Assembly: GCA_024742605.1 (NCBI GenBank) | Contig: JANSYC010000011.1 | Span: 1-64,000 of the forward strand | Source of the DNA: Alphaproteobacteria bacterium | GTDB taxonomy: Bacteria; Pseudomonadota; Alphaproteobacteria; Thalassobaculales; Thalassobaculaceae | Length of the DNA stretch: 64,000 nt | Direction: 5' to 3' | Shown here: positions 52,332-61,540 of the stretch, piece by piece | How positions within the stretch are numbered: position 1 is the first letter of the stretch | How the letters are laid out: each line of letters begins with the position of its first letter | Notes under the pieces: model-generated | The model's database searches: none | What the model saw: the letters and a program-made list of their open reading frames with translations, nothing else | What the model was told of the DNA's origin: nothing | Translations under genes and position numbers: made by a program

Positions 52332-52685
52332 ATGACAAAGGTGCTGACCGAAGTGTCCCAGGAGATGCGGGTGATGCGCGATGAAAGCCTCGGTCCGGTC
52401 GTGGGTACCATGAAGATCTCGTCCGACGAGGAGGCGATCCGGCTGATGAAGGACAGCGCGTTCGGTCTGGCCGCCAGTCTCTGGGCCCGGGATATCGACC
52501 GCACCGCCGGGATCCGCGACCGGATCGAAACCGGCGCCATGTTCATGAACCGGGCGGACTATCTGGATCCAGGCCTGTGCTGGACAGGCTGCAAGAGCAC
52601 CGGGCGCGGCGGCGGGCTGTCCGCCATCGGCTACCACAACCTGACCCGACCGAAATCCTATCATCTCAAAAAGGTAACCTCATGA
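52332..52685 (+). pseudogene. Aldehyde dehydrogenase, only the C-terminal ~115 codons left
   Basis: The 117-codon frame reads like the last quarter of an ALDH: TEVSQEMRVMRDESLGPVVG, then DEEAIRLMKDSAFGLAASLW, GAMFMNRADYLDP, a KSTGRGGGLSAIGYHNLTRP tail and KSYHLKK. The N-terminal NAD-binding part and the catalytic Cys and Glu, about 340 residues, are missing. A start ATG with AAAGG at 7 bases exists, so the piece may still be translated, and its stop overlaps the next gene (ATGA). An in-frame deletion from the native start to the C-terminal part would explain this exactly. Confidence 0.8.
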
Positions 52686-59136: not shown

Positions 59137-60396
59137 TCAGGCTGCCAGCAGATCCTCCTCAAACGGAAAGGCGCTGAGCACCTCGATCCCCGTCTCGGTG
59201 ATCAGGACCTGCTGTTCCAGTTTGACACCCTCGCCGCTCTGCGACTCGCCGATGAAGCTTTCCACGCACAGGGTCATGCCGGGCTCGATCACCCCGTCAT
59301 AGCCGGCTTTCGAGTAATCGGCTTTATGGTAGAGATACGGATACTCACCGGTCATGCCGCAACCATGGGCGGACAGGTAGTAGCGATGCTCCCAGTACCG
59401 CTCCGGTACGTCCCACGCCGCCTCGGAGTACTCGCGGAAGGTCATGCCCGGCCGCAGGACTCCCATATTGTGGTGCACCTGCTCATGCGCGACCCGGTAA
59501 AGCTCCCGCTGCTTCGTGCTCGGCCTGTCGGGGCCGGAATGAAAGGTCCGGGAAAAGTCGGAATAGTATCCATGGCAGCCGACGACATCGGTATCGAGCG
59601 CGATCAACTCGTTCGGGCCGATCACCTTGGGGCCGGTCTCCTGGAACCATGGGTTGGTCCGTGCACCGGAGTTCAGCAACCGTGTCTCGCAGTAGTCTCC
59701 GTTCTGGGCGATGATCGACTGGTGAAGCACGGACCAGAGTTCGTTTTCCGTGAGTCCCGGGCGAATGGCGTCCCGCAGCTTACCCACACCGATTTCCGTC
59801 GCACGAAGCGAGGCGCGGACGCATTTCATCTCTTCGACGGATTTGATGCAGCGCGCCATCTCGACCGGCTCCTGCGCATCGACCACCCGTAGCCCTTCGG
59901 CGGACAACGCTATAGCCGATCCGGCGTTCAGACGCTCGACGCCGACGGTCGCCTTCGGCCCGACCAACGATCCGATGAGATCCGCAATCTCAACCGCCCA
60001 GGCGCGCTCGCTCTCGGCGACAGCCGGTCCGGCGGCAACAAAGCTGGCTGTGCTGGAGGGCCGGACCTCGTCAACCGTCTCAAACCCATGGGCCAGATGC
60101 AGACACCCGGTGAACTCGAACAGAATGGAGCGGGCGGCGGTCAGCAGCAGATAGCGGGCCGGTTGATTTCGGGACGAGAAGATCTGCATGTTCCGCGTGC
60201 CGGTCGCATAGCGGATGTTGACCGAGTCCGACAGGATCAGCGCATCGATCTCCCGCTTGGCCATCTCCGCCCGCACCCGCCCCAACCGATACAGCCGGAC
60301 TTGGCGCAGATCGATTCCAGCACTTTCGGGCGCCTGATCCAACAGCGTGATGCCACTCAGATCACTGCGCGCGCCGTGCCAATCCAGGACTGTCAT
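59137..60396 (-). CDS. M24 metallopeptidase-fold protein, DddP-like but lacking the DddP catalytic Asp
   Basis: This 419-residue creatinase/prolidase-fold protein aligns over its length with DMSP lyase DddP: YRLGRVRAEM, SVNIRYATGTRNMQIF, CETRLLNSGARTNPWFQETG and GMTLCVESFIGE. The six metal ligands are kept (Asp268 and Asp270 in LDTDVVG, Asp280 in YSDFSRT, His344, Glu379, Glu394 in KLEQQVLI). The residue that aligns with DddP Asp377, remembered as its catalytic base, is Gly350 (AHGCGMTGEYP). A different C-O/C-S lyase or a peptidase activity is possible. The ATG used is the second of two, with GGGAGG at about 5 bases; homocysteine S-methyltransferase lies upstream. Confidence 0.8.
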   Translation of the reverse strand: MTVLDWHGARSDLSGITLLDQAPESAGIDLRQVRLYRLGRVRAEMAKREIDALILSDSVNIRYATGTRNMQIFSSRNQPARYLLLTAARSILFEFTGCLHLAHGFETVDEVRPSSTASFVAAGPAVAESERAWAVEIADLIGSLVGPKATVGVERLNAGSAIALSAEGLRVVDAQEPVEMARCIKSVEEMKCVRASLRATEIGVGKLRDAIRPGLTENELWSVLHQSIIAQNGDYCETRLLNSGARTNPWFQETGPKVIGPNELIALDTDVVGCHGYYSDFSRTFHSGPDRPSTKQRELYRVAHEQVHHNMGVLRPGMTFREYSEAAWDVPERYWEHRYYLSAHGCGMTGEYPYLYHKADYSKAGYDGVIEPGMTLCVESFIGESQSGEGVKLEQQVLITETGIEVLSAFPFEEDLLAA

Positions 60397-60560
60397 CATT
60401 TCCTCCCGCTGGTCCGCTTCAGCCGCCACCGGAGGTCTACAACCGTTCCCGCCTTTGAGGAATGGCGGAGTTCAGAGAGGCCCGACAGGAGGTCGGATGC
60501 GGGTCCGGCCACGAAGGCATGAAAGGGTCATCCGGAAGACTTCCGGCAATTGGGGAAGAC

Positions 60561-60580
60561 GGCGGCGGATGTCCGCCGCC
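60561..60580 (-). terminator. Hairpin between the methyltransferase and M24 genes
   Basis: GGCGGCGGA (60561-60569) and TCCGCCGCC (60572-60580) form a 9-bp perfect repeat with only TG between them. In the minus direction it follows the methyltransferase stop by 12 bases. No T-run follows, so it may reduce read-through or stabilise the upstream message. Confidence 0.45.
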
Positions 60581-60592
60581 CCCAGGTGTATG

Positions 60593-61540
60593 TCAGGCCG
60601 CCGTCTTGTGATGCAGATGCTTCGAGACGCAGCCAACGTGACGATGATCGGTGCCGCAACATCCGCCGAACACGCGCAGGTTCGGGAGCCGTTCGGCGAG
60701 CTGCACATGCAGACCACCGAACTCCACCGGATCACCGTCGTCGAGCTCCTCCGCCATATCCAACTCCGCATGGCTAAGTCGGGACGCGTTGGCCCGCACC
60801 GCTCCGATCCGCTGGACCCAGGCGGCATCGCCCGACAGGATCTCCTTGAAGTGGTCGGGATGGGCGCAATTGATCATATAGTAGAGCGGAGCCGCGCCGG
60901 TCTCCGCGTCGGTCTGCTCGATGGCCGCAGACAACAGCTGCCCCGTCGGCAAGCGCCCGTCGGTCTCAACCGTGAACGAGATGACGACCGGAACCTTCTG
61001 GCTGGCGCAGGCCCGCACGATCCCGATGGCTTCCGACGTGTTCGACAAGGTTATCGCCGAAATCATGTCGACCCCCTGCTTGCTGAGAACCTCCACCTGG
61101 GGGAGATGCGCCTGGAAGGCTTCGGTCACGTCCGGAAGGCGTCCCGGCGCATAGGCGTCGCCGGCCGGACCGATCACACCGTTCAGAACGATGGACGGGA
61201 CCCGAGTGATCCAGGCGTCGCGCGTTTCCTTTGCAAAGGCGACCGCTTCGGCGGTCAACCGCAGCAGATCCGCGCCGGTGGTGCCCAGTTTCGGTGCCCA
61301 GTCCGGACAGCCGCGCCAGGTATTCGTATCCAGCACGTACCCCGTACCCGCCTGCTCGGCCAGAACGAGGAACCGGTCGAAATACCGCCGCATCGCCGCC
61401 CGCGCCTCCTCGTCGTCCATCAGCACGATGGCCGCGAACTCCGGAGCCTCGAAGCCATCCACGAAGAACAGCCAGGTCTCAAACCCGCCATCGGTCAGAT
61501 AGGGGGTTTGGGTCCGCATCAGTTTTTGAATTTCAGACAT
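60593..61540 (-). CDS. Homocysteine S-methyltransferase family protein
   Basis: This 315-residue TIM-barrel methyltransferase begins LTDGGFETWLFF, has LDTNTWRGCPDW and VPVVISFTVETDGRLPTGQ, and shows the zinc ligands in MINCAHPDHF (one Cys) and FGGCCGTDHRH (two Cys). The family moves a methyl group from S-methylmethionine, betaine or a sulfonium compound to homocysteine. GGAG lies 7 bases before the ATG. It faces a TetR gene across a gap with a long dyad and precedes the DddP-like gene on the same strand, so a sulfonium methyl donor would make sense but is not shown. Confidence 0.88.
   Translation of the reverse strand: MSEIQKLMRTQTPYLTDGGFETWLFFVDGFEAPEFAAIVLMDDEEARAAMRRYFDRFLVLAEQAGTGYVLDTNTWRGCPDWAPKLGTTGADLLRLTAEAVAFAKETRDAWITRVPSIVLNGVIGPAGDAYAPGRLPDVTEAFQAHLPQVEVLSKQGVDMISAITLSNTSEAIGIVRACASQKVPVVISFTVETDGRLPTGQLLSAAIEQTDAETGAAPLYYMINCAHPDHFKEILSGDAAWVQRIGAVRANASRLSHAELDMAEELDDGDPVEFGGLHVQLAERLPNLRVFGGCCGTDHRHVGCVSKHLHHKTAA

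Follow-up and report, generated by a model that had tools for sequence, protein, structure and literature searches.

DddP is an enzyme of ocean bacteria that releases dimethyl sulfide from DMSP, and the locus described here raises the question of whether a protein with the DddP fold and metal site, but with glycine in place of the presumed catalytic aspartate, is a DMSP lyase at all. The protein in question, P0001, lies on the minus strand of the window (the whole 64,000-nucleotide stretch of alphaproteobacterial contig JANSYC010000011.1 that was analysed), where an undamaged ORF running from 60396 to 59137 encodes 419 amino acids behind tandem ATG codons with a good candidate ribosome-binding site. 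The translation contains the Pfam domains Peptidase_M24 and Creatinase_N, and a search of the source genome for DddP-like proteins revealed no second copy. Below, family members with glycine at the position of Asp377 in RlDddP are called Gly-type and those with aspartate Asp-type.

59137..60396, minus strand: Gly-type DddP-like M24 protein P0001, 419 aa (translation; DddP structures top by sequence and fold; Pfam)
60397..60407, minus strand: start region, Shine-Dalgarno-like GGGAGGAA 5' of the tandem ATG codons at 60399/60396 (sequence)
60593..61540, minus strand: homocysteine S-methyltransferase family protein, upstream of P0001 (NCBIfam, below cut-off)

Pfam, the AlphaFold2 model of P0001 (mean pLDDT 89.5, pTM 0.87) and fold searches agree on an M24B metallopeptidase fold with both the Creatinase_N and the pita-bread domain present. 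Four DddP entries were the closest solved structures by sequence (~32% identity), and in fold searches with the model DddP was nearest by far (Z 47, rmsd ~2.0 over 406 residues), followed by prolidases (Z ~35) and then creatinase and ectoine hydrolase (Z ~33-34). With DddP (RlDddP 4rzy/4s00/4s01, RdDddP 4b28), P0001 shares the fold and N-terminal domain, the six metal ligands including the DTD motif, Tyr366, and the NIRYAT and TRLLxSGxRTNPWFQ blocks (the latter TRLLNSGARTNPWFQ in P0001). Going by the model, the overall shape is DddP-like and it is the active-site residues that differ.

The strong match to DddP claimed in the initial annotation stands as far as these blocks and the LDTD block are concerned, but identity is only ~32% and the score against the NCBI DddP equivalog model (NF043017) is 307.6 bits (1.3e-91), about half of the curated cut-off of 600. 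Three relatives that are 55-85% identical to RlDddP exceed this cut-off at 627-821 bits. The NCBI pipeline would therefore not name P0001 DddP, and the annotated relatives, found on plasmids, are labelled 'Xaa-Pro peptidase family protein'. The expectation that simple annotation would yield a DMSP lyase consequently applies to loose searches and not to the NCBI curated model. One survey employed a DddP HMM cut-off of 1e-30 with no identity cut-off and checked key residues afterwards (PMC8520302), and the HMM stage alone would take in Gly-type proteins, whilst the Tara survey that reported dddP as the most abundant marine DMSP lyase gene (~65% of ddd genes) also demanded at least 40% identity (PMC10686828). 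The residue set G377/R98/Y262/Y305, as opposed to D377/H98/W262/C305 (RlDddP numbering), tells Gly-type from Asp-type proteins.

Residue equivalences were taken from an alignment to RlDddP (4rzy) with the numbering checked. As first reported, all six metal ligands are present, D295, D297, D307, H371, E406 and E421 of RlDddP corresponding to D268, D270, D280, H344, E379 and E394 of P0001, and Gly350 occupies the position of Asp377.

59557..59595, minus strand: metal ligands D268 and D270 (LDTD) and D280 (alignment)
59365..59367, minus strand: metal ligand H344 (alignment)
59260..59262, minus strand: metal ligand E379 (alignment)
59215..59217, minus strand: metal ligand E394 (alignment)
59380..59382, minus strand: Tyr339 codon (DddP Tyr366), common to Gly-type and Asp-type (alignment)
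59347..59349, minus strand: Gly350 codon, at the site of the presumed catalytic DddP Asp377 (alignments)
60169..60180, minus strand: Phe73 to Arg76 (DddP Trp95 and His98); Arg in 48/48 Gly-type (column comparison)
59692..59694, minus strand: Tyr235 (DddP Trp262); Trp in 63/63 Asp-type (column comparison)
59563..59565, minus strand: Tyr278 (DddP Cys305) (column comparison)
59326..59328, minus strand: His357 (Tyr384 in RlDddP), in 92% of Gly-type rows (column comparison)

The glycine does not stand alone. In RlDddP numbering, the cleanest differences between the two types are Trp95 to Phe/Tyr, His98 to Arg, Trp262 to Tyr and Cys305 to Tyr, and Ile308 to Phe, Leu375 to Met, Cys376 to Thr and Asp377 to Gly also distinguish them. 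Unlike DddP, P0001 has Gly for Asp377, Phe for Trp95, Arg for His98 and Tyr for both Trp262 and Cys305; Trp248 and Trp277 are kept, the sulfonium-contacting Trp being unnumbered in the sources consulted. Judging by closeness in sequence to the metal ligands or to conserved blocks of the N-domain, the type-distinguishing positions would line the pocket, which appears to have been rebuilt in the Gly-type family. Sequence matches were too short for Arg76 to be compared with a substrate arginine of the creatinase N-domain. A search for a substitute acid, which set aside exchanges between Asp and Glu and positions at which both types often have Asp, found none among residues conserved in Gly-type but not Asp-type proteins, and the takeover of the Asp377 role by another aspartate, raised at the outset as a possible objection, was thus rejected. 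His357 is a possible alternative base in Gly-type proteins. PDB entry 4s01 is a deliberate D377N mutant, solved with acrylate.

To place these differences within the family, relatives were gathered from 98 near genomes, 80 named GTDB loci, 385 alphaproteobacterial genomes and plasmids. Profile scores separated the DddP-like family (at least 398 bits) sharply from other M24 proteins (at most 169). Position 377 was Gly in 88 of the first 105 alignment rows and, among 179 rows of which three are non-family outgroup rows, Gly in 96 and Asp in 77, with the metal ligands and Tyr366 almost invariant throughout. Restricting the set to the 115 members below 80% identity left 49 Gly and 63 Asp rows, and a tree of these rows, with the HGxGxx[DG]ExP motif columns excluded, placed 48 of the 49 Gly rows on one side. 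Forcing all 49 together gave a likelihood 37.9 log units above that of the free tree and was not rejected by the AU test (p 0.80), because the quick free search had missed a better tree; the sole misplaced row (L112) still has Arg98, Tyr262 and Phe305. A single old Gly/Asp split is accordingly the best-supported history of these sequences, short of proof of a clade, and independent losses of Asp in several lineages are unneeded as one group fits. P0001 lies well inside the Gly side and apart from the verified DddP clade; full-length relatives 72-77% identical to it occur in Roseovarius, Oricola, Tritonibacter, Burkholderia and Granulosicoccus, among others. Phylogeny, the first check suggested for this gene, therefore sets the Gly-type proteins apart from verified DddP, and P0001 is, as far as sequence comparison can tell, a member of a separate, widespread sister subfamily in which the Asp377 site is always Gly, rather than a DddP that has lost its aspartate.

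The two types are not always found in separate loci. At L108 (2430-4816) and L143 (4015-6532) a Gly-type and an Asp-type gene are adjacent and codirectional, next to a HalD-like oxygenase, and L163 (G121 contig 7) holds at least five DddP-like paralogues within a 20-kb stretch, one of which has Asn at position 377.

Gene neighbourhoods also differed between the types, with the qualification that the counts are phylogenetically non-independent and the Gly-type and Asp-type samples differ in taxa. Within 8 kb, an OpuAC glycine-betaine-type binding protein was encoded at 24 of 78 Gly-type loci vs 1 of 41 Asp-type loci, and a HalD-family (PF23169) oxygenase at 34 of 78 vs 3 of 41; MTTB ran the other way, at 3 of 78 vs 9 of 41. 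As the 31 related genomes carry only zero to five OpuAC genes each, the OpuAC adjacency is well over chance even with this bias. It recurs in several separate Gly-type subclades, including that of P0001 (L048, L060, L063, L069) and the Halomonas/Burkholderia-type, Chromohalobacter-type and Sinorhizobium meliloti pSymA/Shinella subclades. In the HalD-type oxygenase group an HxD motif marks hydroxylases rather than halogenases, and H-[YF]-D was present in all 31 HalD-like neighbours examined, ruling out a halogenase reading.

Individual loci add detail to this pattern. MTTB (pfam06253) includes a marine bacterial glycine betaine demethylase (PMC12478193), and within the subclade of P0001 the Gly-type gene lies between MttB and an FAD/GcvT oxidoreductase gene in Oricola, and between MttB and an ABC binding protein gene in Aliiruegeria; for most members of this subclade, a divergent LysR gene is the sole recurrent neighbour. 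At the Chromohalobacter locus, a gene for a GbdR-like regulator and one similar to gamma-butyrobetaine dioxygenase lie close by. On S. meliloti pSymA and in Shinella, MTTB, a GlxA regulator, the Gly-type gene, an isochorismatase-family gene directly downstream of it and a betaine ABC transporter occur together. The pSymA row (L203, 6284-15738) continues into an enolase-superfamily gene and looks, from its gene content, like a betaine catabolic cluster on a symbiotic plasmid; we found no published description of it. In Halomonas sp. ML-15 (L060, 10001-16175), two opposed Gly-type paralogues each have their own OpuAC-type binding protein, and a HalD-like hydroxylase lies beside one of them.

Asp-type genes outside the verified DddP clade were found in comparable surroundings. 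These proteins, from rhizobia and Burkholderiaceae, belong to the same family and keep Asp377, unlike P0001, and no characterised example was found in the literature. In Rhizobium leguminosarum, a Rieske oxygenase, a reductase and the DddP-like gene are followed by a GlxA regulator, a 4-hydroxyproline epimerase and a betaine ABC transporter. Asp-type genes in Paraburkholderia, Caballeronia and another Rhizobium are likewise accompanied by a Rieske gene and a reductase, there with formaldehyde-detoxification genes, and MTTB or FAD/GcvT genes lie near 9-10 of 41 Asp-type loci. Since Asp-type relatives also sit in betaine-type clusters, Asp alone is not diagnostic of DMSP lyases, and the DddP-like family as a whole seems to be linked to the catabolism of onium compounds, with DMSP lyase as one role within it.

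The P0001 gene itself has no OpuAC, HalD-like or MttB partner adjacent to it in the window, and the functional reading therefore rests on its relatives. Two OpuAC and three MTTB genes are present in the source genome, all away from P0001, and a search of that genome for HalD gave no match, the search controls being equally silent. A histidine-kinase and response-regulator group lies downstream. Upstream, the homocysteine methyltransferase gene was considered as a conserved operon partner and rejected, since it adjoins no other Gly-type gene examined. The ~190-bp gap between the two genes holds a GC-rich hairpin, GGCGGCGGA CA TCCGCCGCC (~60555-60585, minus strand), just past the methyltransferase stop, which a terminator scan did not call as a terminator.

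The initial suggestion of another substrate or mechanism remains the best reading, because Asp377 is missing, no acid replaces it, the change is fixed group-wide and it is coupled to other changes; a part that did not stand is the weight placed on the aspartate alone, given its presence in betaine-type clusters. Tyr366, the other base candidate, is retained. Very probably, P0001 is not mainly a DMSP lyase. With about even confidence, we consider it an enzyme with a dinuclear metal site that belongs to the DddP branch of M24B, within the Gly-type sister subfamily, and acts in betaine-like (onium) catabolism, and the case for a betaine-like substrate is itself evenly balanced; OpuAC-type importers may also carry DMSP, and MTTB is found more often near Asp-type than near Gly-type genes in this sample, both of which count against the betaine reading. 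P0001 would not generate dimethyl sulfide from DMSP through a beta-elimination driven by the Asp. Its substrate would be a different small zwitterion, in all likelihood an osmolyte of the quaternary-ammonium (betaine-like) kind or a compound derived from one. A betaine-type importer would bring this substrate into the cell, and in certain lineages a HalD-like iron/2-oxoglutarate enzyme would hydroxylate it beforehand. Mechanistically, the invariant Arg76 (DddP His98) might grip the substrate carboxylate and so free the metal pair for the activation of water or of a carbonyl; a C-N or C-C bond could then be broken by a hydrolytic or retro-type route, Tyr339 and possibly His357 serving in acid-base catalysis. 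More speculatively, and with a chance that we put well short of even, the Gly-type proteins may form an undescribed family of enzymes that use a DddP-type metal pair, but not the DddP base, to cleave betaines of the quaternary-ammonium kind or the products of their hydroxylation, acting in several lineages as a second step after a HalD-like hydroxylase. DddP would then be a specialised branch, of Asp type, within a broader family of onium-degrading enzymes. Our search of the open literature turned up neither an activity assay on a Gly-type protein nor a publication on DddP-like proteins that lack Asp377 or occur in betaine clusters.

Other functions were weighed against this reading. It is unlikely that P0001 works like creatinase or ectoine hydrolase, as an amidohydrolase-like enzyme for some small nitrogen compound and with no betaine link. 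These small-molecule M24 relatives (creatinase, DoeA/EutD) are the closest folds after the prolidases, and the isochorismatase-family gene of S. meliloti and Shinella would suit such a role, but P0001 is only ~20% identical to creatinase and DoeA, scores 53.9 and 43.6 bits against the NCBIfam DoeA models (cut-offs 575 and 613), and has Gly-type relatives whose neighbours point to quaternary ammonium compounds. That P0001 is a true M24B peptidase of the Xaa-Pro type, as the records of its relatives would have it, is improbable. Xaa-Pro dipeptidases and aminopeptidases do share its two-domain pita-bread fold (Z ~28-35) and Pfam domains; P0001, however, has the DddP-type LDTD six-ligand site, belongs with DddP to one sharply bounded family, and has Gly350 where the second prolidase histidine, following HGxG, is retained in the prolidase-like outgroup rows L027 and L028. 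According to a review, RlDddP is inactive on Val-Pro, and DddP has other residues in place of two histidines that are conserved in M24 (PMC5395565).

It is quite improbable that P0001 is after all a DMSP lyase, whether ordinary or weak, using Tyr339 (Tyr366) or His357 as the base. The conserved metal ligands and tyrosine would allow it, Tyr366 is put forward as another possible base in the RdDddP structure paper, and the fungal FgDddP is active at 32% identity to RdDddP (PMC4108388). The same paper nonetheless favours Asp377 and reports that it does not vary among the DddPs of Todd et al. 2009 (PMC4108388), and a review of DddP describes one Trp and one Tyr that bind the DMSP sulfur and an Asp that takes the proton (PMC5395565), whereas the Trp95 and Trp262 sites are Phe and Tyr in P0001, which in addition lies outside the verified DddP clade. 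A sequencing error at Gly350, or a decayed and inactive gene, is refuted by the intact ORF, the full-length relatives in many genera and the fixation of Gly across the group. Should the betaine reading be true, a large uncharacterised osmolyte-degrading family is hidden under the 'Xaa-Pro peptidase' label, including a member on the S. meliloti symbiotic plasmid.

Elsewhere in the window, only the C-terminal ~117 amino acids of an aldehyde dehydrogenase are encoded at 52332-52685 (plus strand), flanked on one side by a glutamine-synthetase-like gene and on the other by an iron alcohol dehydrogenase resembling 4-hydroxybutyrate dehydrogenase. In a MAG of the same genus (L067), the aldehyde dehydrogenase spans at least 216 amino acids and runs to the contig end, and the partial copy in the window could reflect gene decay, a deletion or an assembly join.
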